41,616 bases of DNA, taken from the NCBI GenBank assembly GCA_017938145.1, contig JAGBCB010000039.1, positions 1 to 41,616 on the forward strand, given 5' to 3'. The position numbers were made by a program, and so were the translations under genes. This DNA is from Lachnospiraceae bacterium (GTDB lineage Bacteria; Bacillota; Clostridia; Lachnospirales; Lachnospiraceae). Under the pieces are notes generated by a model. The model had not been told where the DNA came from and did no database searches. It saw nothing but the letters and a program-made list of their open reading frames with translations. Shown piece by piece: positions 15,146 through 35,263 of this stretch; within the stretch, counting starts at the first letter, position 1; each line of letters opens with the position of its first letter.

Positions 15146-15148
15146 TGT

Positions 15149-15212
15149 AATCCTCCTTGTTTTCCGAAGGAAAATGCCCGCCCGCCGATTGCGGGCAGAG
15201 GATTTATCCTCC
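15149..15212 (-). repeat. Structured RBS repeat, copy 1
   Basis: Read on the minus strand the order is: GGAGGAT; AAATCCTC; a GC stem GCCCGC / GCGGGC; a stem TTTTCC-TTC-GGAAAA (15174-15160); then AAGGAGGATT, which is the ribosome binding site of the 461-residue protein. The same 62-64-base layout recurs at 19412-19473 and 33277-33339. It begins 5 bases after the stop of the permease gene, so this copy is inside an operon. Confidence 0.9.
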
Positions 15213-15217
15213 TAAAG

Positions 15218-16324
15218 TCAGTGGTAAAGTTCTGTCATTTTCCGGACAAACCAGCTGTTTGGCACCCAGACCGAAGTTCCCTCCGGCACAAGCAGTCCGT
15301 CCACCACACTGATAAATCCTAAAACTCCGAATATGAGAATCATTGCCAGCATTCCCATCTGATATACGGTATGATTCTTAATTATGTATGCTGCAAAAAG
15401 CATCAAACATACTATAACACAAATGTATACCATAGTGCAAACAAGTAATGAAAGAATTTCGGAAATTTCCATCCGGTTCTTCCAATACAGACACAATAAG
15501 AACATACTTCCAAAGAGAAACGGCACAAAAAGTCCGGCCACCGCACTGCCGGCATATACCGCACTTTGCCGGATTGGAAGAATTTTTATTCTGTCGCCCA
15601 AACGTCCGTGCCTGATTTGACGGAACGGGAGCACCGCATAAACGGAAAGAAATCCCAGCATCAGTGCAAACACCGCATAAATGGCCTGTTGATATATTAC
15701 CGACTGAGACGGTTTCTTTACCTCTTCATTCTTTCTGTTTACATAGGTTACTTCAAAAGAGAATTCTGTGCCACCCTCTGCCAGAACCTGTTCTACATAT
15801 TCCCTGTATTCGTCCGCAGACAAGGTTTCTTCCAAACCTGCCTTCTTTTGATACTTCAACAGCATCTGATACCCTTTTGCCGTACAAATCTCCTGCATCA
15901 TGGTACCGGCAAGTACATCTCCCAGAAGCAGGGCGCTATTGTCCGGTGTTTCATACAGAGTTACCAGATTCTTGGTTTTACCCTTAAGAAGATTATCTGC
16001 AAAGCTCCGCTTAAACACACATACCGCAGAAACCTCACCTCTTTTTAACTGTTCTACCAGTTCATCTTCCCTGCCAAGGACGATTTCATATAAATCCTTC
16101 TGCTGCATCGCATCGATTACCATAGCAGAAAGTTCTGTGCTGCTTTGATCTGCAATTCCCACAGATATTTTGCTTTTTTCTTCCTTTACTTCTTCCATGC
16201 TAAACAACATAAAAGCTAAAATCATCCATCCCGTTATCAGTAAAATAATGGTTTTCTTTCCTGCCAGCAGCAATTTGAAGCTGTACACCATAGTGAGTAC
16301 TGTTTCTCTTATCCAACGCATCAT
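15218..16324 (-). CDS. ABC-2 type permease (second of a pair)
   Basis: A 368-residue protein with the ABC2_membrane_3 plan. It has one N-terminal helix (about 16-36), a soluble external domain (about 45-205) with SVGIADQS, then about five C-terminal helices. The family forms the membrane part of exporters or of YhgE-like systems. The ATG at 16324 overlaps the stop of the upstream permease (ATGA) and has GGAGGT 8 bases before it. No ATPase gene lies beside the pair. Confidence 0.85.
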   Translation of the reverse strand: MMRWIRETVLTMVYSFKLLLAGKKTIILLITGWMILAFMLFSMEEVKEEKSKISVGIADQSSTELSAMVIDAMQQKDLYEIVLGREDELVEQLKRGEVSAVCVFKRSFADNLLKGKTKNLVTLYETPDNSALLLGDVLAGTMMQEICTAKGYQMLLKYQKKAGLEETLSADEYREYVEQVLAEGGTEFSFEVTYVNRKNEEVKKPSQSVIYQQAIYAVFALMLGFLSVYAVLPFRQIRHGRLGDRIKILPIRQSAVYAGSAVAGLFVPFLFGSMFLLCLYWKNRMEISEILSLLVCTMVYICVIVCLMLFAAYIIKNHTVYQMGMLAMILIFGVLGFISVVDGLLVPEGTSVWVPNSWFVRKMTELYH

Positions 16325-17412
16325 GGCAAAATACCTCCCATCACATAGGTGAAGTTACGGTTTGGCATCCAGGCTGCAATTTTCTGAAAGCTGTCCGGTA
16401 AATATGCTTCCGGAATCAGGCTTCCTCCAAAGATTGCCAGACATACCAATACCATGCTGCAAATAAAAAGATACTGCTCACTGTTTTTACAAACACGTCC
16501 TAGTAACAAAAATACTACCAGCCATGGACATAAAAGCAGTATTGCCCCCGGTAGCGTTTCCGGCCCGGACATTCTGCTGCATATCACCGCTAAGGCTCCT
16601 ACAGAAAGCACAAGATACGGAAGTCCTACTGCCGTGAGAATTCCGGCCGACTGCATATTCACCGTCCGCAGCCGGTTCAGCATTCCGCTCTTACGGATGG
16701 AAAGAACCCGTAGTCCCGCCGGCAAAAACAAAAAGATTAAAATAAAATATACTCCCGTAAACTGATAATGCTGTACCAAAGAAAGCGCCGGCTGTTCTTC
16801 AGCCTCCTGGCGTTCCACTAACTGCTTACGAAAAAAATCATCCTTTCCAAGAGCAGTAAAAATCAGGTCCAGGGATATTTCCACATTGGCAGCATCCCGC
16901 TCTTTTGCGGAAAATCCTTCTTCTCTCATCCGGCGATACAGCGCCGTGCAATTTACCTCCACTGCTTCAATATAGGTTTCGTACGCCTCCATCACATGGC
17001 GCATTACCAAAGCCTTGGTTGGATTTTTCATGGAAACTGCCGCCTGAATCGGAAGATTTTCCATATCCAGCATGCTTTGGGCGAAATTTTCAGGAATAAT
17101 CAAATAGGCATCCAGCCTGTTTTCTTCCATTGCTTTCTGTAAATTTGCCCTGCTGTCCTCTATCAGCTCCACGTACTTTAAAAAATCTTCGTTTTCATTA
17201 AAGTATTCCATCAATAAATCAGCATAGGCAGAGGTATCTTCCTTTGCAACACCGAGCATGATTTTTGCCGGTTCCGGCTCTTCTTTTTTCTGTTCCTTTA
17301 CATAGCAAATAGTGCCTATCATAAAAATAATAAGCACTACTAAAAATACGATATTCTGTCTGTTTTTCCACCTTGCTGCTTCTGCCTGCAGCAATATCCG
17401 GACAGTTCTCAT
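16321..17412 (-). CDS. ABC-2 type permease (first of a pair)
   Basis: A 363-residue protein with the same plan as the next gene: helix at about 19-36, external domain with KIMLGVAKEDTSAYADLLMEYF, then a C-terminal group of helices from about 215. The two permeases would form a heterodimer. GGAGGAG lies 8 bases before the ATG. It starts only 4 bases after the rhomboid-like gene. An ATP-binding subunit must be encoded elsewhere, or the pair works without one. Confidence 0.85.
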   Translation of the reverse strand: MRTVRILLQAEAARWKNRQNIVFLVVLIIFMIGTICYVKEQKKEEPEPAKIMLGVAKEDTSAYADLLMEYFNENEDFLKYVELIEDSRANLQKAMEENRLDAYLIIPENFAQSMLDMENLPIQAAVSMKNPTKALVMRHVMEAYETYIEAVEVNCTALYRRMREEGFSAKERDAANVEISLDLIFTALGKDDFFRKQLVERQEAEEQPALSLVQHYQFTGVYFILIFLFLPAGLRVLSIRKSGMLNRLRTVNMQSAGILTAVGLPYLVLSVGALAVICSRMSGPETLPGAILLLCPWLVVFLLLGRVCKNSEQYLFICSMVLVCLAIFGGSLIPEAYLPDSFQKIAAWMPNRNFTYVMGGILP

Positions 17413-17416
17413 GAAA

Positions 17417-18427
17417 TTACTCCTCCGGTTTTATGTTCGCTCCCGGTACAATGCGTCTGACATGTTCATGGGTATATAAGTGGTCCGAACAATATTCAAA
17501 ATTACCTTCGCACTTGGAGCAATAACGGAATTCTAAGTTTTCATCATCCAACTCGGTTCTTCCGCAAATGGAACATTTATGTCTGGTAATTACGGTTCTT
17601 CCCTGATAGGTAGAAGTATTTCCCACCTTTTGGGCCTGATGCACCTTCTGCCGGTACTCCATCTTACGCTTTTGCTCCTTCGGAGAAATTCTGCGGTAAT
17701 CCCTGGTTGCAAAGAAAAATACCAGGAAGTTAAGCAAGGTCGCCACCATCATAATTCTGGAGGAAATGTTGCCCATAATAAAGCTGTAAACCATTAAAAA
17801 TCCGTAGAAAATACCAAGCCATTTTGCTTTAATCGGAATTAAGAACTGAATTCTAAACACCGCCTCCGGACAGCATGCCGCAAAAGCAAGCAGCATGGAC
17901 ATCTTTAACTGGTCGGTACTGATGGAACGGAACCAATAGGTTGGTAACAGTGTTGCTTCTCCGCCGACAGTGGCAGTACCGTATATGGTAAACACCTGTC
18001 TTGCGCCGTCAGGTCCGATTTGCTCAATCAGCTCCGCAAACTGCACTCTGGCCACAAAATACAAGACAAAGCTTCCGATAACCGTAAACAACAGACCGGA
18101 AAAGATATATAAATTATACCGGAATTTTCCCATAACATACTGCAGGTTACATCCGAGAATATAATAACAATACAATACGATTAAAAGCATCAGCATACCG
18201 GAAAAGCCGCTTCCAAGACCTGCTTCCGGCATCAGCACCCAGGTAAACAGTCTCCAGACCTGTCCCTTCAGCACCAGATAAGGATTTAAGTACAAATACT
18301 CCACAACGCCCGGCAGGAACATCTGGAGGAAATAGCCGATACCTGTACATACCACTAAATATAACGGTAAGTTATTCAAAGCATATCTTCCGTATTTTTG
18401 TTCCATTCTCATCAAAAACTTTCCCAT
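17417..18427 (-). CDS. Rhomboid-like membrane protein with C-terminal zinc ribbon
   Basis: A 336-residue protein. About six membrane segments occupy residues 20-250. The loop GQVWRLFTWVLMP is typical of rhomboid and derlin-like folds. The C-terminal about 60 residues contain paired cysteines (CSICG, YCSKC) and a final YCSDH..THEH group, a likely zinc ribbon exposed to the cytoplasm. I do not see the GxSG/His catalytic pair of active rhomboid proteases, so it is more likely a pseudoprotease or chaperone-like member. It follows corA by 34 bases. Confidence 0.75.
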   Translation of the reverse strand: MGKFLMRMEQKYGRYALNNLPLYLVVCTGIGYFLQMFLPGVVEYLYLNPYLVLKGQVWRLFTWVLMPEAGLGSGFSGMLMLLIVLYCYYILGCNLQYVMGKFRYNLYIFSGLLFTVIGSFVLYFVARVQFAELIEQIGPDGARQVFTIYGTATVGGEATLLPTYWFRSISTDQLKMSMLLAFAACCPEAVFRIQFLIPIKAKWLGIFYGFLMVYSFIMGNISSRIMMVATLLNFLVFFFATRDYRRISPKEQKRKMEYRQKVHQAQKVGNTSTYQGRTVITRHKCSICGRTELDDENLEFRYCSKCEGNFEYCSDHLYTHEHVRRIVPGANIKPEE

Positions 18428-18461
18428 AAACTACTACTTCTGCCTTTCTAAATGTCAAACA

Positions 18462-19406
18462 CTAAAATACATCCTTCTTGTGGAAAATCAGAGCCACAAG
18501 ACCGGCAAGTAACAATGCAAACGCAAGGACAATGTAAAATCCGTACGGATTATTATGCCCCGGCAGCGGCACGTTCATACCGTAAAAGCTGGCTATCATG
18601 GTCGGAATCGACATAACGATGGTAACCGTTGCCAAAAATTTCATAACAATATTTAAGTTATTACTGATAACTGAGGCAAAGGTATCCACCATTCCGCTTA
18701 AAATTCCATTGTAAATGTTGGCCATCTCCATCGCCTGTTTATTCTCGATAATTACGTCTTCCAGTAAATCCTCATCATCCGGATAACGCTTCACCTTTTC
18801 ACTCTTCATCATTTTTTCGAAGACACCTTCATTGGCACGCAGGGAGGTTGTAAAGTACACCAAACTCTTTTGCAGTTCCAAAAGCTCAAATAATTCTTTG
18901 TTCTTCTGGGATACATGCAGACGGTCTTCGATAGACTCACTCTGGCGGTTGATGGAACGTAAAAACTGCAAAAACTGAGTTGCAACCCTAAAGAAAATCT
19001 GCAATATAAACCGGGTCTTTTTGTGGGTAGAAAAACCTTTTACCCGACCGGTACGCAGCTGCGCCAATACCGGAGTGTCTACGAGACAAACCGTAATAAT
19101 ATAATCGTCCAAATGTACAATGGCAAGCGGCATGGTAATGTAACGGTCTTTTTCCTGCTTTTCCACAATTTCCTTTTCAATTGCAGGGATGTCGACAATC
19201 ATCAAGGTATAGTCGTCTTCCTTTTCGATACGGGCACGTTCTTCCGCATCCAGTGCAGCCTTCAAAACATCTTCTTCCACACTGCACATACTGGCAATAT
19301 GATGAATTTCCGAAGGAGTGGGGTTCGTCATGGAAATCCAACAGTCTTTTTCTACGGTTTCAATTTGTTCCAGGTTTCCATCAATGGTTTTGAAAATCTC
19401 AATCAT
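18462..19406 (-). CDS. corA: CorA family divalent cation transporter
   Basis: A 314-residue CorA. A large cytoplasmic N-terminal domain (about 1-245) is followed by two C-terminal membrane helices, with the selectivity motif YGMNVPLPG in the loop between them and the basic tail HKKDVF. It imports Mg2+ (possibly Co2+/Ni2+) as a pentamer. The ribosome binding site AAGGAGGATT belongs to repeat copy 2, and a terminator closes the operon upstream, so expression may depend on readthrough or a cryptic promoter. Confidence 0.95.
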   Translation of the reverse strand: MIEIFKTIDGNLEQIETVEKDCWISMTNPTPSEIHHIASMCSVEEDVLKAALDAEERARIEKEDDYTLMIVDIPAIEKEIVEKQEKDRYITMPLAIVHLDDYIITVCLVDTPVLAQLRTGRVKGFSTHKKTRFILQIFFRVATQFLQFLRSINRQSESIEDRLHVSQKNKELFELLELQKSLVYFTTSLRANEGVFEKMMKSEKVKRYPDDEDLLEDVIIENKQAMEMANIYNGILSGMVDTFASVISNNLNIVMKFLATVTIVMSIPTMIASFYGMNVPLPGHNNPYGFYIVLAFALLLAGLVALIFHKKDVF

Positions 19407-19411
19407 AACCC

Positions 19412-19473
19412 AATCCTCCTTTTGTTTTGCGAAGCAAAATGCCCGCCCGCACGCGGGCAGAGGATTTTCCTCC
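19412..19473 (-). repeat. Structured RBS repeat, copy 2
   Basis: It has the same arrangement as copy 1: GGAGGA / TCCTC pair, GC stem GCCCGC / GCGGGC with a 2-base gap, then stem TTTTGC-TTC-GCAAAA (19439-19425) and the corA ribosome binding site. Compared with copies 1 and 3 the C-G pair at the fifth stem position has become G-C on both sides, a compensatory change that preserves the hairpin. Confidence 0.9.
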
Positions 19474-19490
19474 TTGTCTTGTTTAGAATG

Positions 19491-19516
19491 AAAAAGGCAG
19501 ATTGTTCCATCTGCCT
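19491..19516 (-). terminator. Terminator of the citrate synthase/IDH/GntR/CPBP operon
   Basis: Stem AGGCAGAT / ATCTGCCT with a 6-base loop followed by five T on the minus strand. It lies 32 bases after the CPBP stop and only about 20 bases before repeat copy 2. Confidence 0.85.
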
Positions 19517-19548
19517 CTTCTTTTTTTACTATTATAAAATTTCAATGC

Positions 19549-20454
19549 TTATTCGTCAAATGAATTTTCGCTAAACATTTCATTTTCTGCAATATTTTCC
19601 GGTTCTGTTACCATAACCGGTTCTCTTTTGGCTCCCGGATACAATTTAGCAGCCACAAAGAGCAATACTACACCTACTAAAGCCACGCAGCCAGCGCCAA
19701 TCCAAGTTTCTGTAAGTGCCGCCGGCAAAAGGGATAAAACTTCAGCCGAACCGTTTACACAGGCATGCAGTAAAATTGCTGCCCAGATAGAGTGAAAATA
19801 CTCTGCCGTAAAGCCTAAGATGATTCCAAGTGCAAAAGCATACACACCCTGAATCAGATTCATGTGGTAAATACCGAATAAAACCGCCTGAAGTATATTG
19901 GCCGCCATAAACGGCATGATTTTCTGTGCTTTTTTCAATGTTACACCGCGGAACAAGAATTCTTCCGCCAACGGTGCCAAAATCACTGTAACAAACAGGG
20001 ATAACCAGACATTTCCACCAAGCAAAGATTCCATCAGCTCACTATACTGGTCGGTTAAACTCTGCGGCAATATCGGATATACCGCATTTAAACACATGGA
20101 AATCAAAAACTGCAGGGAAAGACCCAAACATGCCATAGCCGCAATCAGTTTTCCGTTTACTACTTCCTTCAGCTTCCAATCGGTGGCAGGCTTATGTTCC
20201 CGGTACCAAAGGGCACCGATAAGCAACGTGCCGGCAGTAGCAATTGCGGTAATTATCATCAGCATATCTACGCTATACATATTTTCCATGAGATACGCTT
20301 CCTGCTCTGCTGCATCCGTTATACCAAGCGTAGCCATTTTCACTGCCATATATGCACCATAGACAAAAGAAAAAATAAAAGAAACCGATACCTGGCACAA
20401 TAATGCTACGATAATCGGCAGGAAACATCCTAAAAATTTTCCTGTTTTTTTCAC
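19549..20454 (-). CDS. CPBP family intramembrane metalloprotease
   Basis: A 301-residue protein with about eight membrane helices. The CPBP (Abi) motifs are EEFLFRGVTLKKAQ (EExxFRG), GIYHMN and HACVNGSAEV. They supply the Glu and His residues of the Rce1-like active site. The substrate is unknown; relatives act in CAAX processing, bacteriocin immunity or anti-sigma cleavage. It starts with GTG (20454) with GGAGG about 10 bases before it, and lies 2 bases after the GntR stop, so it is the last gene of that operon. Confidence 0.9.
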   Translation of the reverse strand: MKKTGKFLGCFLPIIVALLCQVSVSFIFSFVYGAYMAVKMATLGITDAAEQEAYLMENMYSVDMLMIITAIATAGTLLIGALWYREHKPATDWKLKEVVNGKLIAAMACLGLSLQFLISMCLNAVYPILPQSLTDQYSELMESLLGGNVWLSLFVTVILAPLAEEFLFRGVTLKKAQKIMPFMAANILQAVLFGIYHMNLIQGVYAFALGIILGFTAEYFHSIWAAILLHACVNGSAEVLSLLPAALTETWIGAGCVALVGVVLLFVAAKLYPGAKREPVMVTEPENIAENEMFSENSFDE

Positions 20455-20456
20455 CG

Positions 20457-21137
20457 TTACAGGCCCTCCTTATTCATATTTTCAATGGTCTGGATAATAT
20501 GCTCATGGGCCAGCTTTTCCGCCAAATCACCGTCTCTGCTCCGGATTGCTTCCAGAATAGCCAGATGCTCCTCATTGGACTGCAGGGCACGTTCTTCTCT
20601 CTTTAACGATTCCTTACGGATTCGTTCCAGATACTGGTGGAAGGTAGTAAGCTCATGCTCTAAAATTTTACTGCCGGATGCCCGGTAGATGCTTTCGTGG
20701 AATTTATTATCCAACTCCACCAGCTGTTCATAATGCTTTTTCTTTGCATGGAATTTAGAAAGATACACGATTTCTTCAATAGTATCAATTTCCGGTTCCG
20801 AAATATGCTCGCACGCCCATCTGGCAGCCAAGCCCTCCAGATAAGAACGGATTACATAAATATCTCTGGTATCCTTTGAAGAAATTCCGGTAACGTAGGC
20901 TCCCTTGTTCGGGACAATTTTTACCAGGCCCTCCAGTTCCAGCTGACGAAGTGCCTCCCGGACCGGAGTACGGCTAACGCCGCACTCTGCCCCGATTGTC
21001 GCTTCCTTTAATTCTTCATTTTCACTGTATTTTCCGGACAATATGTCCTCTCTAATCCGGTGAAATACTCTTCCACGGAGAGAATATTGGTCGGTTACTT
21101 CCTTTTGGACAGCACTTCTGTCCTTACCCTCTTCCAT
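20457..21137 (-). CDS. GntR family transcriptional regulator, FCD (FadR) subfamily
   Basis: A 226-residue regulator. The N-terminal winged helix (about 15-85) contains LSGKYSENEELKEATIGAEC and VSRTPVREALRQLELEGLV. The C-terminal all-helical FCD domain (about 95-220) has conserved metal/ligand positions including DNKFHESIYRASG and EHLAILEAI. FCD regulators bind organic acids. It lies 39 bases after isocitrate dehydrogenase in the same operon, and a perfect 18-bp palindrome overlaps the operon promoter, so it most likely represses its own operon in response to a TCA-type acid. The inducer is not known. Confidence 0.93.
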   Translation of the reverse strand: MEEGKDRSAVQKEVTDQYSLRGRVFHRIREDILSGKYSENEELKEATIGAECGVSRTPVREALRQLELEGLVKIVPNKGAYVTGISSKDTRDIYVIRSYLEGLAARWACEHISEPEIDTIEEIVYLSKFHAKKKHYEQLVELDNKFHESIYRASGSKILEHELTTFHQYLERIRKESLKREERALQSNEEHLAILEAIRSRDGDLAEKLAHEHIIQTIENMNKEGL

Positions 21138-21176
21138 TATTTTATACCTTTCCTTTTCTAAGATATAACCTTATTC

Positions 21177-22343: not shown

Positions 22344-22403
22344 TGTTTTATCCTCCAAAATAATTTTTTAAGTTAGGTCGATTTAAGCGACCCTTGCAAA
22401 ACC

Positions 22404-23807: not shown

Positions 23808-23843
23808 AATTATGTACTCTCCCTTATATTTTCTCACTTTTGC

Positions 23844-23875
23844 ATAATTGTATACAATTATACTCGTATTGTCAA
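23844..23875 (-). promoter_or_regulatory. Citrate synthase operon promoter with 18-bp palindromic operator
   Basis: TTGACA (23875-23870) and TACAAT (23852-23847) are spaced 17 bases apart on the minus strand. A perfect 18-bp palindrome, ATAATTGTATACAATTAT (23844-23861), covers the -10. Its core TTGTATACAA is the shape typically bound by FCD-type GntR regulators. Confidence 0.88.
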
Positions 23876-23913
23876 CCAGAAAGTTCACAATTTTTCATGT
23901 TTTTTCTAAACTT

Positions 23914-24957: not shown

Positions 24958-24968
24958 AACCGTTTCCC

Positions 24969-25499
24969 CTATTTTTGTTCCAAATCATATAAAACAATCT
25001 GTCCTTCCGCCAAAGATTCCTGCACAAGGATTGTCCTCTGATTGGAAGAACCTTTAAACCGCAGGGACAAATTCTTTAATGCTTCCACAAATTCCCCGTC
25101 TACCAGAACCTCCAGGCAGGAGAGAATTTCCCTTGTTTCGGGAAATTCCTCCCACATGCGGCCCATAATATCTTTTTCGAAGTCATACCCGGAAAAAAGC
25201 CAGACCGACTTTTCCGGATATGCTTCCTTTACTCTTTTTAGTAACGCAGATACCGCCGGCTGATTCTGTGGCTCCATTGGCTCTCCGCCGAGCACGGTTA
25301 ACCCCTTTACATAGGAAGGCTCCAGATATTTAATTATCTCTTCTATGGTTTCTTCCGTAAAGGCTTTACCGAAATTAAAATCCCAGGCTTCCTCATTAAA
25401 GCAGCCTTTACAATAATGGGTACAACCGCTGACAAACACGGATACCCGTACTCCCGGCCCGTTCGCCACATCGTATTGCTTGATATCTGCATAATTCAT
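24969..25499 (-). CDS. nrdG: Anaerobic ribonucleotide reductase activating protein NrdG
   Basis: A 176-residue radical SAM enzyme. The cluster motif C-x3-C-x2-C is at residues 26, 30 and 33 (SGCTHYCKGCFN), and the SAM-binding stretch TVLGGEPMEPQNQ follows. It makes the glycyl radical on NrdD. ATG at 25499 was chosen, with AAAGGGAA upstream; this removes 11 residues from the longer frame and gives the usual NrdG start MNYADIKQYDV. It follows nrdD by 48 bases. Confidence 0.97.
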   Translation of the reverse strand: MNYADIKQYDVANGPGVRVSVFVSGCTHYCKGCFNEEAWDFNFGKAFTEETIEEIIKYLEPSYVKGLTVLGGEPMEPQNQPAVSALLKRVKEAYPEKSVWLFSGYDFEKDIMGRMWEEFPETREILSCLEVLVDGEFVEALKNLSLRFKGSSNQRTILVQESLAEGQIVLYDLEQK

Positions 25500-25547
25500 G
25501 ATAGTAATTCCCTTTCTGTCTGCCGAATCCACAGACAGAATTCAGCC

Positions 25548-27674
25548 TTATATATGAAGTACTCTGGAGTTAATCTCTTTTGTCTTGCCCACGTTCCAGA
25601 AATTTTCACCTAAATAACCACAGGTTCTTCTGGTTACGTTCATTTTTGCATGGTCTTTATTGCCGCACTGCGGACATTCCCACTCCAACTGGTCGTTGAT
25701 CTTAATTTCACCGTCATAGCCGCATTCATGGCAGTAGTCGGACTTGGTGTTAAACTCTGCATACTGGATATGATCGTAAATATATTTTACCAGTTCTTCC
25801 AGTGCCTCTAAGTTGTGACGCATATTTGGAATTTCTACATAGGAAATGGCACCACCGGAGGAAATCACCTGGAACTGGGATTCAAAGTCAAACTTATGGA
25901 AAGCATCTATGCGCTCGCGCACATCCACATGATAGGAATTGGTATAGTAACCCTTGTCAGTAATATCCTGGATTTCACCAAAGCGCTGTTTATCAATTCT
26001 TGCAAAGCGGTAACACAGGGACTCTGCCGGTGTACCGTATAAACCGAAATGGATACCGGTAATTTCTTTCCAGCCGTCCGTAGCCTTTCTGAGGCGCTTC
26101 ATCAGCTTCATGGCAAACTGGGTTCCGCCGTCCTCTGTGTGGCTCTTGCCTGTCATCAGCTTGGTTACCTCATACAAACCGATGTAGCCTAAGGAAATGG
26201 TGGAGTAACCGTTATGTAACAGCTTGTCTATCTTCTCACCCTTTTTTAATCTTGCAATGGCTCCGTACTGCCAATGGATTGGGCTGACATCGGACAGGGT
26301 TCCCTCCAGCGCATGGTGTCTGCACATCAGTGCTTCGAAGCAAAGTGCAAGACGTTCCTCTAACAGCTGCCAGAAATACTCCTCATCACCCCTTGCAATA
26401 ATACCAATCTGAGGAAGATTCAAAGAAACTACGCCCTGATTAAAGCGTCCCTCAAACTTATACTTGCCCTTTTCGTCCTTCCATGCGGTTAAAAAGCTTC
26501 TGCAGCCCATACAGGAGAATACATTACCCTCATAATTTTCCCTCATCTTCTTAGCAGAAATATAATCCGGATACATACGCTTTGCAGAACACTTAATAGC
26601 CATCCGGGTCACATAATCGTACTTACCACCCTGTAAGCAGTTGTGCTCATCTAATACATATATTAACTTAGGGAATGCAGGAGTTACATACACACCCTTT
26701 TCGTTTTTAATACCCTCTAAACGCTGGCGAAGGATTTCCTCAACAATCAACGCATTTTCCTCTAAGTATTCATCATCTTTATCCAGATTCAGGAACAGGG
26801 TAACAAACGGAGATTGACCGTTGGTGGTCATCAATGTATTAATCTGGTACTGGATGGTCTGTACACCGGAACGAAGTTCATCTAACAGGCGGTCATCCAC
26901 AAATGCCTTGATAACCTCCTCATCCGCCTTACCTTCAAACTTCTCACGATATCTCTTTTCATATTTTTCCCGGCTGTAGCGCAGATACTTTCCTAAATGG
27001 CGCACATCTACGGATTGTCCGCCGTACTGGGAGCTTGCCACCGCAGCAATAATCTGGGTTACAATGGTACATGCCACCTGGAAGCTCTTCGGACTCTCAA
27101 TTAATTTGCCGTTCATCACCGTACCGTTGTCCAACATATCACCAATGTTAATCAGGCAGCAGTTAAATATTGGCTGCAGGAAATAATCCGCATCGTGGAA
27201 ATGCAGAACGCCCTGGTCATGCGCCTTAGATATTTTCTCCGGCAGTAAAATTCTTCTTGTTAAGTCTTTCGATACTTCGCCCGCAATCAAATCACGCTGT
27301 GTAGATGCAATAACGGCATTCTTATTGGAATTTTCCTCCATAACGTCCTTGTTACTGGCACGGATTAAGCTTAAGATAGACTCATCTGTCGTGTTACTCT
27401 TTCTAACAAGTTCTCTTGTATAACGGTAAATGATGTAGTTCTTGGCAAGGGCAAACTTACCATCCTCCATCAGTTTCATTTCCACAAAATCCTGAATTTC
27501 CTCCACCTGCATGGTTGTCTTCTTTAAGCCTTCCAACGCAAGAATAATCTGGTTGATTCTGGATTCCTCCACTCTTTCGTCTTTGTTTACGGTGGCATTA
27601 GCCTTTACAATGGCACTATATATTTTGTTTCTGTCATAGTCCACGGTACGACCGTCTCTCTTTACCACATTCAT
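25548..27674 (-). CDS. nrdD: Anaerobic ribonucleoside-triphosphate reductase NrdD
   Basis: A 708-residue class III reductase. The N-terminal ATP-cone (about 1-90) senses the dNTP pool. The catalytic barrel occupies the centre. A zinc site near the C-terminus has CHEC and CPQC pairs. The glycyl radical site is RRTCGYLGENFW, with the radical glycine at residue 686. It reduces NTPs to dNTPs under anoxia and fits a strict anaerobe. The ATG at 27674 is preceded by GAGGAA and, further up, AAGGAGG. Transcription is probably under NrdR control. Confidence 0.98.
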   Translation of the reverse strand: MNVVKRDGRTVDYDRNKIYSAIVKANATVNKDERVEESRINQIILALEGLKKTTMQVEEIQDFVEMKLMEDGKFALAKNYIIYRYTRELVRKSNTTDESILSLIRASNKDVMEENSNKNAVIASTQRDLIAGEVSKDLTRRILLPEKISKAHDQGVLHFHDADYFLQPIFNCCLINIGDMLDNGTVMNGKLIESPKSFQVACTIVTQIIAAVASSQYGGQSVDVRHLGKYLRYSREKYEKRYREKFEGKADEEVIKAFVDDRLLDELRSGVQTIQYQINTLMTTNGQSPFVTLFLNLDKDDEYLEENALIVEEILRQRLEGIKNEKGVYVTPAFPKLIYVLDEHNCLQGGKYDYVTRMAIKCSAKRMYPDYISAKKMRENYEGNVFSCMGCRSFLTAWKDEKGKYKFEGRFNQGVVSLNLPQIGIIARGDEEYFWQLLEERLALCFEALMCRHHALEGTLSDVSPIHWQYGAIARLKKGEKIDKLLHNGYSTISLGYIGLYEVTKLMTGKSHTEDGGTQFAMKLMKRLRKATDGWKEITGIHFGLYGTPAESLCYRFARIDKQRFGEIQDITDKGYYTNSYHVDVRERIDAFHKFDFESQFQVISSGGAISYVEIPNMRHNLEALEELVKYIYDHIQYAEFNTKSDYCHECGYDGEIKINDQLEWECPQCGNKDHAKMNVTRRTCGYLGENFWNVGKTKEINSRVLHI

Positions 27675-27736
27675 TTCCTCAAAAAACCTCCTTCTTCCTT
27701 GAGCCCCGGTTCACTTAAATCACGGTTCACCACAAC

Positions 27737-27765
27737 AGTATATATGATTTATCGGCCAATATCAA
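27737..27765 (-). promoter_or_regulatory. nrdD promoter
   Basis: TTGATA (27765-27760) and TATACT (27742-27737) are 17 bases apart on the minus strand, about 65 bases before nrdD. The -35 lies inside the first NrdR-like box. Confidence 0.75.
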
Positions 27766-27817
27766 TATATAGTTTACATTCTGTTTCATTTTTTCTCATC
27801 AGCACTATATCTAGTAC
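27760..27817. promoter_or_regulatory. Two NrdR-like boxes
   Basis: Box 1 (27760-27775) has the core TCAATATATAGT; box 2 (27802-27817) has the core ACTATATCTAGT. Both match the NrdR pattern AC-w-ATAT-n-T-w-GT, and the second is close to palindromic. They lie 42 bases apart, four helical turns, as expected for cooperative NrdR binding. The nrdD -35 overlaps box 1, and box 2 also precedes the divergent HD-GYP promoter. Confidence 0.75.
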
Positions 27818-27840
27818 TTTATTTTTTCAAAATTATATCG

Positions 27841-27846
27841 TATAAT
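27841..27846 (+). promoter_or_regulatory. -10 element of the HD-GYP gene
   Basis: A perfect TATAAT lies 34 bases before the plus-strand ATG at 27880. No good -35 hexamer is present at 17 bases (TTATTT-like only), which suggests an activated or weak promoter. Confidence 0.45.
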
Positions 27847-27879
27847 GTTCATATTACACACAGATAGGAAATAAGCACT

Positions 27880-28953
27880 ATGGCACTCATTCGAATGAAA
27901 ACCCACAATATCAAGAAAGGAATGGTAATAAAAGCCGATGTATATAACCGGGCCGGCGTTATTCTTGTTCCGGCAGGAACCACCGTTACCAGTGAAGTAT
28001 TTGAACTTCTGAGCAAACATTTTATCGAGGAAGTAGTGATTGAATATGTGACGGAACCGGCATCTGTTACAAGCTTTTCTTCCGGAAGACGCCGTATTAA
28101 TGAAAAAAAATTACAGGAAGCAACTATGATTTATAAGGTTGCAGAAGAAACACTGGCAGAAAATTTAAAGGACATCGTACAAAAAGATAAAGAAGTGGAC
28201 ATTCCTGCTCTGCTCGGTCTGTTGCAGTCCGTCATAGACAAAGTAGATGAAGAACTCAGTATTTTTGATATTCTGCATCATATGCAAAAGGACTCCGATA
28301 CCCTCTATGCCCATTCCATCAACGTTTCACTATATGCACAGTTACTGGCACGTTGGGCAAATCTGGTTGCAGAGGAAATCGAACTGGTCTCCCTGTCCGG
28401 ATTACTTCATGACATGGGACATCTGCAATATCCGGAATCCGACACCGAACCTTTTACCCTGCATGACGGCATGGAAAAAAACTGCCACGAGCAACACCCA
28501 ACCCTCGGTTACCGTCTTTTGCAGAACAAATCCATTGATCATCGGATCAAACAGGCAGTCCTTACCCATCACGAACGTTTTGACCAAAGCGGTTTCCCTT
28601 TAGGGGTTTCCTTTGTCAATATCAACCAGATTGCCAGAGTTCTTTCCATTGCAGACAGTTATGTGACACTCATTACGGAAGAAAACGGACATCCCGGAAT
28701 GATTCCGTTTGAAGCTTTAAGACAGCTTCAGGAAACCGATTACAAAAAATTCGATTACAAACTCCTTACCATCTTCGTGGAACATGTTTCTCTTAACTAT
28801 GTACAACACGAAGTACAGCTGACGGACGGGCGTATCGGTACCATCCTGATGATTAATAAAACCGACATTTCCAGACCTTTAGTCCAAATCGGCAACTTTT
28901 TTGTTGATTTAACAAAGCAAAAAGATTTGGCTATCGAAAAAATTTTAATGTAA
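27880..28953 (+). CDS. HD-GYP domain protein, probable cyclic di-nucleotide phosphodiesterase
   Basis: A 357-residue protein. Residues 1-60 form a small N-terminal beta/alpha domain (MKTHNIKKGMVIKADV...). The HD-GYP domain (about 135-280) has H145, HD at 177-178, HP at 206-207, HH at 230-231 and DQSGFP in place of DGSGYP, plus a late IADSYV aspartate. The metal ligands are kept, so c-di-GMP hydrolysis is likely. The HDxGK lysine is His181 and the GYP is GFP, so activity may be altered. The C-terminus (about 290-357) is a small extra domain. AGGAAA precedes the ATG. Confidence 0.85.
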   Translation: MALIRMKTHNIKKGMVIKADVYNRAGVILVPAGTTVTSEVFELLSKHFIEEVVIEYVTEPASVTSFSSGRRRINEKKLQEATMIYKVAEETLAENLKDIVQKDKEVDIPALLGLLQSVIDKVDEELSIFDILHHMQKDSDTLYAHSINVSLYAQLLARWANLVAEEIELVSLSGLLHDMGHLQYPESDTEPFTLHDGMEKNCHEQHPTLGYRLLQNKSIDHRIKQAVLTHHERFDQSGFPLGVSFVNINQIARVLSIADSYVTLITEENGHPGMIPFEALRQLQETDYKKFDYKLLTIFVEHVSLNYVQHEVQLTDGRIGTILMINKTDISRPLVQIGNFFVDLTKQKDLAIEKILM

Positions 28954-29018
28954 TCAGGTAACAAAGACAAACCGTGCCACATAGTATAGGATTGTAAAAC
29001 ATTTTGGAGGTCCTTCAA

Positions 29019-29270
29019 ATGGGATGCTTTTCTAACTGTGGCGGCAGCAGCTGCTGGATCATTATTCTTCTTTTATTATTCTGCGGTAACAACGATGGTT
29101 GCGGCTGCAACAACGGTGGTTTCTTCGGTGGCAACAACTGCAGCTGCCTCTGGATTATCCTCTTACTTCTGTTCTGCGGCTGCGGCGATAACAACAACAG
29201 CGGCTATGTAACAACAGGCAATAACGGTTGTGGTTGCAGCACATGCAATCCTTGCAATACCTGCTGCTAA
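29019..29270 (+). CDS. High-cysteine small protein (HCB-13-like)
   Basis: An 83-residue protein made of Cys, Gly and Asn with two hydrophobic tracts (CWIIILLLLFC at about 12-22, CLWIILLLLFC at about 43-53). It ends CSTCNPCNTCC. Such proteins are annotated in clostridia as chorion class high-cysteine HCB protein 13; their role is not known, and spore-coat or surface deposition is one idea. GGAGG lies 8 bases before the ATG at 29019; the longer in-frame start at 29004 overlaps it. A terminator follows 39 bases after the stop. Confidence 0.85.
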   Translation: MGCFSNCGGSSCWIIILLLLFCGNNDGCGCNNGGFFGGNNCSCLWIILLLLFCGCGDNNNSGYVTTGNNGCGCSTCNPCNTCC

Positions 29271-29309
29271 TTTCCGACAGCTGTTCTGTCATATTTTTGG
29301 CAAAACATC

Positions 29310-29340
29310 AGGGCATCACTTTTTGTGGTGCCCTTTTTCT
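29310..29340 (+). terminator. Terminator of the high-cysteine gene
   Basis: A 10-bp stem AGGGCATCAC / GTGGTGCCCT with a 5-base loop, followed by TTTTCTTT on the plus strand. Confidence 0.9.
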
Positions 29341-29363
29341 TTCGTAAATTTGTCTGATTTCTC

Positions 29364-29392
29364 TTGCATTATGGAAAAAGAAATATTATACT
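29364..29392 (+). promoter_or_regulatory. aroC promoter
   Basis: TTGCAT (29364-29369) and TATACT (29387-29392) lie 17 bases apart, 40 bases before the aroC ATG. Confidence 0.7.
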
Positions 29393-29431
29393 TAAGCCAA
29401 ACACATTATTACGTTAAAGAGGTAAACTAAC

Positions 29432-30610
29432 ATGGCAGGTTCATCCTTTGGAACAATATTTAAAGTAACCACCTTCGGCGAATCCCACGGTATCGGTCTT
29501 GGTGCAGTGTTAGACGGCTGTCCCGCAGGACTTTCCATCAATGAGGAAATCATCCAGCAGTATTTAAACTTACGCAAGCCGGGCCAGACCAAATATTCCA
29601 CCCCACGTAAGGAGCAGGACAAAATCCGCATTCTTTCCGGCGTATTTGAAGGAAAGACCACCGGAACACCAATCCTTCTGTTGGCAGAAAACGAAACACA
29701 GCGCTCCCAGGACTACTCGGAAATTGCTTCCTACTATCGTCCGGGACATGCCGATTATACCTTCGATGAAAAATACGGTTTCCGCGACTACCGGGGCGGC
29801 GGACGTTCCTCCGGCAGAGAAACCTTGGGCCGTGTTGCAGCCGGTGCTGTTGCCATCGAATTTTTAAAGACTCTCGGCATTGAAATTTGTGCTTATACCA
29901 AATCCATCGGTGCCATCTCCTGCCAAAAAAACGACTATATCTCTAATTTAAGTGAGGATAACAGAGAAACCGAAACCGTTCTTTTTGATAAAATTTCTCA
30001 AGAAGGGTTAGAAAAGCTTAAAGCAGACAAGCTTGCAAGCCCGTTATTTATGCCGGATGCCGAAGCTTCGCTTCTGGCAGAAGATGCCCTGGCGGCTTCC
30101 ATGGAAAACAAAGACTCCATGGGTGGCATCATTGAATGTGTGGTTTCCGGTATGCCTGCCGGAATCGGTGAACCGGTTTTTAACAAACTGGATGCAACCC
30201 TTGCCAAGGCCATGCTCTCCATCGGTGCCGTAAAAGGCTTTGAACTGGGGGCCGGTTTTGCCGTAGCTGAAAGCAAAGGCTCCGAAAACAATGACGCATT
30301 TGTACCGGTAAACGGTGAAATCCGCAAAGCAACCAATCACGCAGGCGGAATTTTGGGAGGCATGAGTGACGGAAGCGATATTATCTTCCGCACCGCCATT
30401 AAGCCGACCCCTTCCATTTTCTCGGAACAGTCCACCGTAAACAAAAACGGCGACGCCATCTCCGTAGAAATCAAAGGACGCCACGACCCAATCATCGTAC
30501 CAAGAGCCGTAGTCGTGGTAGAAGCCATGACCGCCCTTACCATCGCGGATGCACTGCTGGTTAATATGCATTCTAAGCTTAATGGTATTCAAGAATTCTA
30601 CCGTAAATAA
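29432..30610 (+). CDS. aroC: Chorismate synthase
   Basis: A 392-residue enzyme that converts EPSP to chorismate, the last shared step toward aromatic amino acids, using reduced FMN. Family signatures are GESHGIGLGAVLDGCPAG near the start, RPGHADYTFDEKYGFRDYRGGGRSSGRET (about residues 102-130) and GGMSDGSDIIFRTAIKPTPS. The AGAGGT ribosome binding site precedes the ATG. It stands alone between two terminators, with its own promoter. Confidence 0.98.
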   Translation: MAGSSFGTIFKVTTFGESHGIGLGAVLDGCPAGLSINEEIIQQYLNLRKPGQTKYSTPRKEQDKIRILSGVFEGKTTGTPILLLAENETQRSQDYSEIASYYRPGHADYTFDEKYGFRDYRGGGRSSGRETLGRVAAGAVAIEFLKTLGIEICAYTKSIGAISCQKNDYISNLSEDNRETETVLFDKISQEGLEKLKADKLASPLFMPDAEASLLAEDALAASMENKDSMGGIIECVVSGMPAGIGEPVFNKLDATLAKAMLSIGAVKGFELGAGFAVAESKGSENNDAFVPVNGEIRKATNHAGGILGGMSDGSDIIFRTAIKPTPSIFSEQSTVNKNGDAISVEIKGRHDPIIVPRAVVVVEAMTALTIADALLVNMHSKLNGIQEFYRK

Positions 30611-30615
30611 CAAAC

Positions 30616-30664
30616 AATACCCGCATACAGAATGTAAGCGCCAAGCGATTCTGTAGCGGGTATT
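30616..30664. terminator. Bidirectional terminator between aroC and ecsC-like gene
   Basis: The outer stem AATACCCGC / GCGGGTATT and inner stem CAGAAT / ATTCTG enclose a 14-base loop. The hairpin is followed by ATTTATTT on the plus strand. It lies between two converging genes and starts 6 bases after the aroC stop. Confidence 0.8.
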
Positions 30665-30666
30665 AT

Positions 30667-31464
30667 TTATTTAAGTCCACTTCTTTTTTGTCTTAAGTAA
30701 AACCTTCTGCGGTATTTCAGTTCCGCATATTCCATAATCTGCTTCATATAAATAGCATCATAGGCACCGCCTACTGCGCCAACCACAGGAATGCCCTGTA
30801 AAAACTTCATATATAAAAGTTCTTTCGACAGACAACCTGCCGCCGATTTAATAGCGTTTTCCATGGTTCTTGCTTTGGCATAGGCACCATAATCCATATA
30901 AAAATTCAGCTCCTCATTGATGCTTTGCAGCTCTTTTCCGTAACTTAAGGCTCCGCGAATCAAAAGCAGAATAAACTTTTTCTCTTCTTCATCATCATAA
31001 TCAAAGCCATAGCTCAGAGCAATTTCATACACGCCCTTTAGCATCAGTCCCGTAAACAGTGCAATATCCGGCAAACCAACACCCAGGACACCAAGCCCCA
31101 CACCGGCAGCACCGGACATCAAAAGATTTCCCGCACCGGCACCCTTGGCTTTTCCGGAAAATACTTTTAATGCTTTCCTTGTTCCATGCACCTTAGCCGC
31201 ATACTCATTAATTTGATACCACTTCTTCATCTGTGATTTATCATAGGTTTTTTCAATAACACCGGTCCCTTTTTCAAAAACCAGCCGGAATGCCTTTCCA
31301 AAAGCGGTATCCAATGTATTTTGCAGCCCTGCAGGGATTTTCTTTTCCAGCAACTGATTCAGCCTGGAATCGGACTTTTCTGCTCTTTTCGCGATATAAG
31401 CGAGTTCCTGGTCCTCTACCTTTTTCCATTCTTTTTCTAATGGTGTCGGATTCGATTTTTTCAA
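30667..31464 (-). CDS. EcsC family protein
   Basis: A 265-residue protein. The conserved central region GNLLMSGAAGVGLGVLGVGLPDIALFTGLMLKGVYEIALSYGFDYD is amphipathic. EcsC proteins are linked to an ABC exporter locus in Bacillus and to membrane stress, but their biochemical role is unknown. I chose TTG at 31464 as start: it is 7 bases after GGAGG and overlaps the upstream stop codon (TTGA), giving translational coupling. A GTG one codon earlier is the alternative; the longer frame to 31584 lies inside the upstream gene. Confidence 0.8.
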   Translation of the reverse strand: MKKSNPTPLEKEWKKVEDQELAYIAKRAEKSDSRLNQLLEKKIPAGLQNTLDTAFGKAFRLVFEKGTGVIEKTYDKSQMKKWYQINEYAAKVHGTRKALKVFSGKAKGAGAGNLLMSGAAGVGLGVLGVGLPDIALFTGLMLKGVYEIALSYGFDYDDEEEKKFILLLIRGALSYGKELQSINEELNFYMDYGAYAKARTMENAIKSAAGCLSKELLYMKFLQGIPVVGAVGGAYDAIYMKQIMEYAELKYRRRFYLRQKRSGLK

Positions 31465-32072
31465 CACATTTCCTCCCCGCCTGCCAACTTTGGCGGCTCT
31501 ATCTCTTTCCACTCTCCCGGTGCAAGCTCCGGGTCTAACACAATATCTCCCATGGAGATTCTTTTTAAATATATGACCAGACATCCCACTGCTTTCATCA
31601 TACGGCGTATTTGACGTTTTCGACCTTCCGTAATGATGATTCTGCCCTTAGTTACCGGATGAAACGGACGGTTGTGGGCATATTTCTCCTGTAACATTTC
31701 CGGCAATTCGCTCATCACATGCCGCAGCTCTGTAAATTCGGTTAACTCCAATTTTGCCGGTGCCGTCAGCTTATCAGAACCAATGACCGCAACCCCCTGC
31801 TCTAACATATGCTTCTTTTCTTCTGTCAGTTCACCCAGCACGAAAAACTCGTAGCATTTTTCTTTTTTATGTTCCGGGCGGGTCATTAACTGATTCCAGG
31901 CTCCGTCATCCGTAATAATTAGCAAACCTTCTGTTTCCAGGTCAAGACGTCCCACCGGAGACAAATTTTCATTATGCAGTTCTTTAAAATAATCCATTAC
32001 CGTAGGATAACGGTCATCCGTCCTTGCGGTAACACAGCCCACGGGCTTGTTGAACATGTAATAATGGTACAT
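31461..32072 (-). CDS. RsuA/RluE-type pseudouridine synthase without S4 domain
   Basis: A 203-residue enzyme that isomerises uridine in rRNA. The catalytic motif GRLDLETEGLLIITDDG is near residue 42 and the ending motif GRKRQIRRMMKAVG near residue 150. It begins directly with the FNKPVGCVTAR strand of the catalytic domain, so the usual N-terminal S4 RNA-binding domain is absent. The start directly abuts the stop of the upstream gene, and the stop overlaps the EcsC start. Confidence 0.92.
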   Translation of the reverse strand: MYHYYMFNKPVGCVTARTDDRYPTVMDYFKELHNENLSPVGRLDLETEGLLIITDDGAWNQLMTRPEHKKEKCYEFFVLGELTEEKKHMLEQGVAVIGSDKLTAPAKLELTEFTELRHVMSELPEMLQEKYAHNRPFHPVTKGRIIITEGRKRQIRRMMKAVGCLVIYLKRISMGDIVLDPELAPGEWKEIEPPKLAGGEEMC

Positions 32073-32459
32073 TTAATCCTCTATTGTCTCAATTACAATA
32101 TTTAACTTACCGTCCGGAAATTCCAGTCTTCCCTGCAGATTTGCTGTTTCTAACCATTTTAATGCCGGGCTGTCAGTGATAATGGTCGGTGTTGTAGTGC
32201 TGTTGGTTTTTGCATTGTTTTCAATAAACATTCTGCAGTTGTTCCCTTCACAATCCACACCGTCAATCATGTATCTGGCAGAAAGGGTTCCGTTTCCCTC
32301 CAGGTCTGTCTTCTGAGTATCTACGCCTCCCTGTAAAATAGTCCCCTTAAAATACGGACCGTCGCAGGTGCCTTCAAAAGGCAGCATTTTTACCACTCTG
32401 TTACCGGAGGTTACCTCCAGCCATCCTGTCAAATTTACATAAACCCGTAATACTTCCAT
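32073..32459 (-). CDS. DUF3237-like beta-barrel protein
   Basis: A 128-residue, beta-rich protein whose pattern (GPYFKGTILQGGVDTQ, then GNGTLSARYMIDGVDCEGNNCRMFIENNA) fits DUF3237, a small barrel of unknown activity. No signal peptide is seen. GGGGTG lies before the ATG. It abuts the pseudouridine synthase start with no spacing, and follows the hydrolase gene by 46 bases. Confidence 0.7.
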   Translation of the reverse strand: MEVLRVYVNLTGWLEVTSGNRVVKMLPFEGTCDGPYFKGTILQGGVDTQKTDLEGNGTLSARYMIDGVDCEGNNCRMFIENNAKTNSTTTPTIITDSPALKWLETANLQGRLEFPDGKLNIVIETIED

Positions 32460-32505
32460 AATCTTACACCCCTTACTTTTTATTATCTCGTTCCTATGGA
32501 ACGGA

Positions 32506-33273
32506 CTATTCCCTTCCTAAGCAGTCATGGATAAAATATAATCCCATGGCCTCCATACGACGGTTGCCTTCCTTGGTAAACCCATGATTTTCGTCTAAAA
32601 ATGTTTCCAATCTGGCATCTTTATAAAATGTCTTTGCCTTATAGCTGTAGTGAATCGGAACAATATTATCCGCCGTGCCATGCATAAACAATACCGGGTT
32701 TTCAAAGGAACCTAAGTGCTCCCAAATCACATAGTCTTTGGAAACCTCAAAGAACTGATGACCAAGCGGTACGCCCCAGAACGCGAAGTCACCTTCCATA
32801 TGCTCCGGCTTTGGAAAACGCGTCTCCTGATTGTCCAGCATACAAAATGCCGGGAATAAAAGAATCAAACCTCGGATTCTGTCCTTTAACTTTTCTGCGG
32901 TCATAGCAGAAACCAAACCGCCCATGCTGCTGCCGAGCAGGAAAACTTTTGTTTCATCAATCCAGTCCCAACTTGTCACCTCATCGATAACAGAAATCAA
33001 ATCCTCCATTTCAGTGAAATGATTCATCTGCCTGGTGGAAAAACCGCTGGTCTCATCCTTTCGCCCGCCACCGCAAAAGCCGTGGCAAACGCCACAGATT
33101 CCCGCTCCGGCATAATACTTGGCGGAGGTTCTGAAATCACGCTTAAAGCCATCGAAACCATGGCTGAAAATGACTACAGGACATTTTTCTCCTTCCTGCA
33201 TGTTGTCCGGCTTATAATAAAAACAATCACTGATTCTTCCGTGATGTGGTATCTTGAATTCTTTTTTGTGCAT
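32506..33273 (-). CDS. Alpha/beta hydrolase (dienelactone hydrolase/BAAT type)
   Basis: A 255-residue hydrolase. The nucleophile elbow is LGSSMGGL, the oxyanion region FSHGFDGF, the acid MHGTADNIVP, and the histidine DENHGF near the C-terminus. The substrate is unknown; esterase or acyl-transferase roles fit the fold. ATG at 33273 was chosen because the SD AAGGAGG of repeat copy 3 directly precedes it, and the longer frame would run through that repeat. No signal peptide. Confidence 0.88.
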   Translation of the reverse strand: MHKKEFKIPHHGRISDCFYYKPDNMQEGEKCPVVIFSHGFDGFKRDFRTSAKYYAGAGICGVCHGFCGGGRKDETSGFSTRQMNHFTEMEDLISVIDEVTSWDWIDETKVFLLGSSMGGLVSAMTAEKLKDRIRGLILLFPAFCMLDNQETRFPKPEHMEGDFAFWGVPLGHQFFEVSKDYVIWEHLGSFENPVLFMHGTADNIVPIHYSYKAKTFYKDARLETFLDENHGFTKEGNRRMEAMGLYFIHDCLGRE

Positions 33274-33276
33274 GTT

Positions 33277-33339
33277 AATCCTCCTTGTTTTCCGAAGGAA
33301 AATGACCACCACCCTACTGTGGGCAGAGGATTTACCTCC
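33277..33339 (-). repeat. Structured RBS repeat, copy 3
   Basis: It has the same parts as the other copies: GGAGG / CCTC pair, a weaker stem CCAC / GTGG where the other copies have CCGC / GCGG, then TTTTCC-TTC-GGAAAA (33302-33288) and the AAGGAGGATT ribosome binding site of the hydrolase. A further hairpin, TGACGTC / GATGTCA, precedes it at 33345-33361. Confidence 0.9.
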
Positions 33340-33402
33340 ATTTCTGACGTCCCGGATGTCACTTTATTGCTTTGCATCAATAAATTATTTTTAATTAACT
33401 AC

Positions 33403-35170: not shown

Positions 35171-35263
35171 AACTTTTCTCTCCATGGTAATTGTTTTTTG
35201 AAAGCTTTCACCAATATAGTACCAACTATTATAACACAGTTAATGCTAATTTTATATTTTTTC

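Follow-up and report, generated by a model that had tools for sequence, protein, structure and literature searches.

A small dispersed element at Shine-Dalgarno sequences of Lachnospiraceae and its possible role as a mobile, structured ribosome-binding site

Why should three unrelated genes on a single contig begin with nearly the same leader? The stretch in question, a 41,616-nucleotide contig of a Lachnospiraceae bacterium (JAGBCB010000039.1, assembly GCA_017938145.1; the whole of it is called the window here), was reported in a first-pass annotation to hold near-identical elements at 15149-15212, 19412-19473 and 33277-33339. These are indeed present, all on the minus strand according to both the window sequence and a covariance search, and each lies directly 5′ of a start codon (ATG at 15145, 19406 and 33273). 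For the third gene the list of open reading frames (ORFs) gives a GTG start at 33312, inside the element; the Shine-Dalgarno sequence (SD) fits the ATG. The annotated anatomy is also correct, running in transcription order through GGAGG, AAATCCTC, a GC stem, a TTTTNC-TTC-GNAAAA stem and AAGGAGG, and a change of CC/GG to GC/GC in copy 2 and a CCAC/GTGG stem in copy 3 are both seen in the sequence. The element had been suggested to be either a mobile hairpin unit that supplies a ribosome-binding site (RBS) or a family of regulatory leaders, and our data describe something that is both, a dispersed SD-carrying unit and a set of covarying structured leaders. We give an even chance to the reading that it is a small dispersed insertion element, in effect a mobile structured RBS cassette, which inserts at SDs in the sense direction and acts as a leaky modulator of translation.

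The three copies are members of a real family. Six seed copies went into a covariance model (R1) whose structure comprised only two hairpins, H1 and H2; matches were accepted at E<=1e-3, the E-values being rough. At this threshold R1 gave 57 matches in all four genomes of the genus (11 in G000, 15 in G001, 19 in G002 and 12 in G003), including two on contig C8 of G001 (L200 and L201) whose flanks are identical and which could represent a single locus present twice in the assembly. In the window R1, which was built partly from these copies, matched the three alone at E<=0.1. Among 299 sampled genomes of the family 17 had a match (16 of 298 genera by the tool's tally), and in a class-level sample with stricter filters matches occurred in 4 of 391 genomes (G000, G135, G516 and G681). 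The G681 match (L347) looks false, and both L347 and L223 are false or decayed matches by appearance. The G516 copy (L346) precedes a helix-turn-helix (HTH) gene that by eye is the same gene as that behind L272 and L274. Within the genomes sampled, the element is essentially confined to Lachnospiraceae. The copies exceed chance expectation, because a strict pattern found three matches in the genome of origin, three in one congener and none in the other 59 genomes searched, against none in any of 61 genomes for the reversed pattern, and because R1, in the covariance search of this genome and its relatives that the first-pass annotation had proposed, found matches in genomes that gave no seed sequence. 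A 15-mer scan of genome contigs proved too unspecific; among the 117 stretches listed only one, a contig of an uncultured Lachnospiraceae (L060), held the element. Lachnospira eligens ATCC 27750 carries a copy on its megaplasmid (NC_012780.1). Scans of viral collections yielded one contig with the element (L377) in one scan and no match in the other. Three phage-collection records are unannotated faecal contigs; L380, the one of them that was read, has the element before a gene that we take to be lgt and gives no evidence of carriage by phage.

How did the element come to lie where it does? Syntenic stretches of the window sites were taken from congeners for comparison. Site 1 is empty in G001, G003 and G002, with intergenic lengths of 27, 49 and 25 against 72 when occupied; site 2 is empty in the same three genomes (102, 44 and 46 against 142); and site 3 is empty in G001 (201 against 265), whereas the stretches from G002 and G003 showed no ortholog of its downstream gene. 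Similarly, at gyrA the element is present in G002 (78), with empty sites in G000 (24) and G003 (28); at rimM it is present in G003 and the G002 site is empty; and at a mutT-like gene both G002 and G239, a member of another genus, have it and the G003 site is empty. The fabK site is occupied in G000 and G001, and G003 has a different hairpin repeat at that place. Empty sites show a single SD-like sequence near the start codon. In occupied sites the element-end SD (SD2) stands there, usually with a second SD (SD1) upstream of the element; of the 93 aligned copies, 55 have GGAGG in this upstream part, 14 GGAG and 9 GAGG, and the other 15 lack all three. These copies (alignment A6) come from 85 of 104 searched sources (L060, L166-L224 and L261-L304), after omission of duplicates (L188, L201, L269, L275, L276, L279 and L280), of copies with long inserts (L214, L215, L217, L218, L220, L294, L295 and L298) and of weak matches (L221-L224). 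Because relatives have one-SD empty sites at the three window sites and at three others, the element is an insertion of about 50 bp at an SD in sense orientation, and the same comparisons show that it turns over between species. As to a target-site duplication of the kind made by miniature inverted-repeat transposable elements (MITEs), an SD on both sides when occupied and one when empty fits duplication and import of the second SD alike. In favour of import, the GGAGG of SD2 precedes ATT in 63 of 84 copies as compared to 15 of 70 other RBSs, a set that includes some missed copies; in favour of duplication, SD2 resembles the relatives' resident SD at site 2 and gyrA.

The position of the element relative to genes is equally regular. 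In a set of 102 matches, made up of A6 and nine copies added back (L201, L214, L215, L217, L218, L220, L294, L295 and L298), 94 have, within 17 nt of the element end, the start codon of a reading frame that is 40 aa or longer or stays open to the end of the locus. Five of the other eight are array units with another unit (or N) next, L290 has a degenerate unit between it and an ATG, and L193 and L215 have no qualifying ORF within the limit. With an ORF limit of 100 aa the count is 90/102 for elements, 508/1873 for random same-strand places in the same loci and 5/102 for the opposite strand. The median distance from SD2 to the start codon is 6.5 nt. Upstream, an open frame ends within 30 nt in 21 of 86 rows, at 31-150 nt in 19 and further away in 20, and none ends within 400 nt in 26. 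Gene identities were sought with 30 protein queries (29 different proteins) from the 94 downstream frames, chosen because they were recognisable. NCBIfam assignments above the curated cut-off were obtained for eno, rimM, proS, gyrB, infA, metG, cmk, asd, thrS, ATP synthase epsilon, pyrE, hslO, thioredoxin and flgL; fabK, gyrA (a fragment at the locus end), peptide deformylase (a 72-aa frame), FlgD and MutT were best matches below the equivalog cut-off. Pfam domains included FlxA-like at four loci, a type II secretion system F protein, a response regulator and PmbA/TldD. A single regulon was rejected in view of the diversity of these downstream genes. Cells have to make the products of gyrA, infA and metG, for example, so the element cannot be a strict off switch; and because the downstream genes are diverse and often housekeeping, a description that holds only for the 29 hand-picked proteins, both a strict off switch and a one-metabolite riboswitch are unlikely.

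The same gene list bears on whether these are classical metabolite riboswitches or protein-binding leaders, inherited vertically with their regulon. An SD within the closing helix of a junction, covariation, conserved loops and the recurrence of the FlxA-like gene, as well as of the HTH gene at three loci, speak for such a family. However, no pathway is common to the downstream genes, orthologous sites are empty in congeners, tandem arrays reach at least five units, the element has no Rfam match, and in the case of metG a T-box already precedes it. In short, a covarying SD-sequestering helix is found and a set of downstream genes tied to one ligand is not, and we regard this explanation as very improbable.

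What structure, then, do the copies preserve? The unit consists of an anti-SD (AAUCCUC), hairpins H1 and H2, and CAAGGAGGAUU, and its RNA can fold into a three-way junction closed by helix P1 (AATCCTC with GAGGATT), which places the anti-SD over the element-end SD. P1, H1 and H2 covary. Over the whole structure 92.9% of cells pair in the 93 aligned copies, and 127 cells are double changes, against 30.4 +/- 4.2 in shuffled alignments (0/500 shuffles reach this) and 4-14 in slid structures. The counts for H1 and H2 lean towards the model, since both were in R1; P1 was not. In P1, which as a pair of terminal inverted repeats would be in keeping with a MITE, 93.7% of cells are paired, and Watson-Crick pairs number 562 as compared to 530.2 +/- 3.2 (0/5000 shuffles; 87 of 93 rows), or 147 as compared to 122.9 +/- 3.7 in the 25 rows with an unusual anti-SD (0/5000 shuffles). 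Changed pairs include AATTCTC/GAGAATT, AAGCCTC/GAGGCTT, ATTCCTC/GAGGAAT and ATGCCTC/GAGGCAT. The copies are related, and none of these covariation figures is a probability of independent events. The first-pass annotation had taken the paired change in copy 2 as a sign of RNA-level selection; such changes do not prove this by themselves, because DNA hairpins could produce them too. It had also proposed a switch in which the anti-SD segment pairs either with the upstream GGAGG or with the true RBS. The latter helix is borne out by covariation, and the upstream partner is weak: SD1:anti-SD stems add up to 387, barely above the 379.9 +/- 3.4 of shuffles (68/2000 reach this; 87 of 93 rows), and 102 against 97.8 +/- 2.9 in the 25 unusual rows (200/2000). 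The 15 copies with neither GGAG nor GAGG count against that partner, whereas one SD1 base that follows the anti-SD (Fisher p = 0.017) and energy folding favour the pairing. Because empty sites have one SD and inner array units use the SD of the previous unit, the upstream GGAGG is better read as a resident or duplicated SD than as a switch partner.

Could this be a plain dispersed repeat without host function, spread by template switching between SDs and with its paired changes made by hairpin-templated repair? At most of the sites compared, a single congener carries the element, several copies are rearranged (L210, L211, L213, L214, L216, L217, L218 and L220), and the relatedness of the copies means that double-change cells are not independent events. 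Nevertheless, nearly all matches precede start codons in one orientation, and the P1 arms are separated by two hairpins, an arrangement not readily explained by simple hairpin repair. In addition, the element is better conserved than flanking DNA at two shared sites. At fabK (G000 versus G001) 65/66 positions of the element are identical and 522/601 of the flanking 300+300 nt; at the mutT-like gene (G002 versus G239) the figures are 63/66 and 499/600, giving a pooled Fisher p = 2.7e-5 for two sites that were chosen because they are shared. At both, the element exceeds its coding flanks. Random positions, a lack of covariation and a lack of structural conservation in relatives, by which a plain repeat was to be recognised, were not observed, and we consider this explanation improbable.

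Returning to the RBS cassette, it probably tunes translation. After insertion one SD is left upstream and the element-end SD serves the gene at normal spacing. Closure of P1 would lower initiation, and SD1 could bind the anti-SD while transcription is still at an early stage, so that the gene stays on; because the upstream SD could in this way take the anti-SD away, the element would be a leaky modulator and not an off switch. Tandem arrays extend the picture. Their units follow head to tail every ~49-55 nt with SDs shared between neighbours, such that the "first GGAGG" of an inner unit is the SD of the previous unit. Two units are found in L172/L188, L206, L207, L285, L303, L304 and L380, three in L262, L286, L302 and L377, and at least five in L289, around a run of N. 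Arrays may arise by repeated insertion into SDs or by slippage between them, and each anti-SD in an array might pair with the SD on either side, allowing the array to shift between registers.

Several observations weigh against the cassette. Energy folding is at odds with covariation: the mean probability of the P1 core is 0.06 and exceeds 0.5 in only 3/86 copies, and the SD1:anti-SD pairing is favoured (mean 0.52 over 86 rows, with SD2 unpaired at 0.24 and paired with an H2 arm at 0.41). G-U cells (23) and A-C cells (13) do not discriminate RNA from DNA pairing (p = 0.066). The downstream genes are diverse, with no common signal visible; neither the Y1_Tnp search nor the right-end pattern search found an enzyme or a parent element; sites known to be occupied in more than one species are few; and R1 includes the SD, so that SD-less copies are under-detected. 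A P1 that covaries and is not the favoured fold would suit either the second state of a switch or pairing at the level of DNA.

The latter is the basis of the main, though somewhat unlikely, alternative, a mobile DNA hairpin in the style of REP sequences or IS200/IS605 ends, whose pairing is kept for mobility and whose translation effects are incidental. By analogy with the guides of IS200/IS605, AATCCTC would act as a single-stranded DNA guide that pairs with the target GGAGGAT and with the right end of the element, AAGGAGGATT. Orientation and target are fixed and one guide is complementary to both SDs; P1 shows strong and SD1 weak covariation, as would follow if SD1 belonged to the host DNA; RNA folding favours other pairings over P1; and G-U cells are few, 23/1639 counted. 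In the gyrA copy of G002 the guide reads ATTCTC, and the empty site in G003 reads GGAGAATT. On the other side, Y1_Tnp (PF01797) occurs in 5/8 copy-bearing genomes searched, some of them incomplete, and not in G002, G064 or G069, and it also occurs in 3/4 genomes without R1 matches. At the 10 Y1 loci scanned, out of 18, no hairpin ends were found, only two isolated AAATCCTCT words. Mobilisation by Y1/RAYT as the simple answer was therefore rejected for want of an association with Y1 transposases, the one enzyme family tested. A larger parent with the same right end was likewise rejected: all 28 right-end pattern matches in G000-G003 are short copies also found by R1, longer or diverged ends being possible. 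Conservation above coding DNA at the two shared sites also suggests function in place. A further, somewhat unlikely reading is a mobile RBS-homing element, whose anti-SD guide would find SDs by base pairing and which would take over the RBS, with arrays as chains of alternating SD and anti-SD, each anti-SD free to pair to its left or right, giving multi-state translation control tuned by unit number.

How does the element compare with known systems? Rfam has no match in the window (one sub-threshold chance match scores 13.4 bits against 52), and in 14 element loci it reports only two TwoAYGGAY RNAs and one T-box, none overlapping the element; a known Rfam RNA was thereby discarded as a candidate. 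REP/REPIN sequences and IS200/IS605-type ends are small hairpin elements mobilised by Y1 transposases. The element resembles them in size, in an orientation fixed to a short target and in guide-like pairing, and its geometry fits a guide-paired, fixed orientation beside such a target, the DNA pairing itself being putative; unlike them, its target is the SD and it has no association with Y1 transposases. MITEs, ERIC, BOX and Correia-type repeats are, like the element, short non-coding dispersed insertions; we know of none that inserts at SDs or brings an SD together with its cover, and for the element, unlike these, the right-end pattern found no autonomous partner in G000-G003. The closest published systems can be compared as far as the available passages describe them. 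TAACTGA direct repeats of Beggiatoaceae, Bacteroidetes and Cyanobacteria are heptamers before start codons with a suggested role in translation (PMC4679880). They share with the element shortness, frequent tandem arrangement, sense orientation, a place directly 5′ of start codons and the lack of a common gene function, but have little SD character and mostly no canonical SD (PMC4679880). The element, by contrast, is structured, is ~50 nt long and brings an SD and an anti-SD of its own. The mobile or repeat hairpin motif MRSC-65-2 also has many copies per genome, strong covariation and possible relevance as DNA, but it is one long stem with a UYCCGG repeat, found in diverse phyla and sometimes near a transposase, and those passages do not describe it as tied to SDs (PMC11109978). 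The dauA motif, a riboswitch candidate, likewise has a three-stem junction that includes the SD, but has one gene association in Streptomyces and is not dispersed over unrelated genes (PMC11109978). None of the passages on these nearest published systems brings together insertion targeted to SDs, a unit-borne SD under a covarying cover, and tandem arrays. Searches of the open-access full text of PMC, a scope that excludes subscription papers and preprints, brought up no paper that appears to describe the element.

If the cassette reading is true, a small module of SD and cover has rewritten the translation starts of many housekeeping genes in a gut family. Such a module would offer a route by which translational control spreads between unrelated genes, with tandem arrays that could tune expression. 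Lachnospira eligens ATCC 27750, a named collection strain with a copy, makes the idea testable in a real host.

Table 1. Element copies in the window and their parts
Feature	Position	Strand	Basis and remarks
Copy 1, whole element and upstream SD	15148..15214	-	R1, 89.7 bits (seed sequence); empty in G001, G002, G003
Copy 1 SD1 (upstream GGAGG)	15208..15212	-	sequence
Copy 1 anti-SD AATCCTC, 5′ arm of P1	15198..15204	-	sequence; P1 covariation
Copy 1 hairpin H1 (TGCCCGC ... GCGGGCA)	15175..15197	-	sequence; covariation
Copy 1 hairpin H2 (TTTTCC-TTC-GGAAAA)	15160..15174	-	sequence; covariation
Copy 1 SD2 GGAGGATT, 5′ of ATG at 15145	15149..15156	-	sequence; covariation
Copy 1 P1 3′ arm GAGGATT	15149-15155	-	sequence; P1 covariation
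Copy 2, whole element and upstream SD, 5′ of CorA gene 18462-19406	19411..19476	-	R1; empty in G001, G002, G003
Copy 2 SD1	19469..19473	-	sequence
Copy 2 anti-SD AATCCTC	19460..19466	-	sequence
Copy 2 SD2 (GGAGG, two extra A before)	19415..19419	-	sequence
Copy 3, whole element and upstream SD, 5′ of alpha/beta hydrolase gene 32506-33273	33276..33342	-	R1; empty in G001
Copy 3 SD1	33335..33339	-	sequence
Copy 3 anti-SD AATCCTC	33326..33332	-	sequence
Copy 3 SD2 (GGAGG), 5′ of ATG at 33273	33280..33284	-	sequence

In the window, copy 1 lies between an ABC-2 transporter gene, whose stop is at 15218, and the gene 13760-15145, whose 461-aa product has no Pfam match. Elsewhere on the minus strand a 548-aa protein (33539-35185) has sigma-70 regions 2 and 4 only in its first 190 residues, the rest being without a Pfam match. 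At several element loci other structures occur as well. The metG element of L217 has a T-box leader upstream (2001-2444, minus strand), placing two leader structures in succession on one transcript, and TwoAYGGAY RNAs lie near two G064 genes with tandem arrays (L262 2804-2971 and L289 3563-3726). On the Lachnospira eligens megaplasmid an annotated patatin frame (L378 19161-20069) crosses the element, which encodes its last residues, and a flavodoxin gene is next. Five copies (L210, L211, L213, L214 and L216) have an extra hairpin between the anti-SD and H1, giving a junction with more branches. Finally, a second dispersed hairpin repeat, about ACAGAAAAC...GTTTTCTGATTGTCA, is found inside some copies and beside others: it lies within H2 of L217, L218 and L220, upstream of the rimM copy at L176, and also at G001 C24:13746-13822 and C82:47783, and it replaces the element at the fabK site of G003 (L353).

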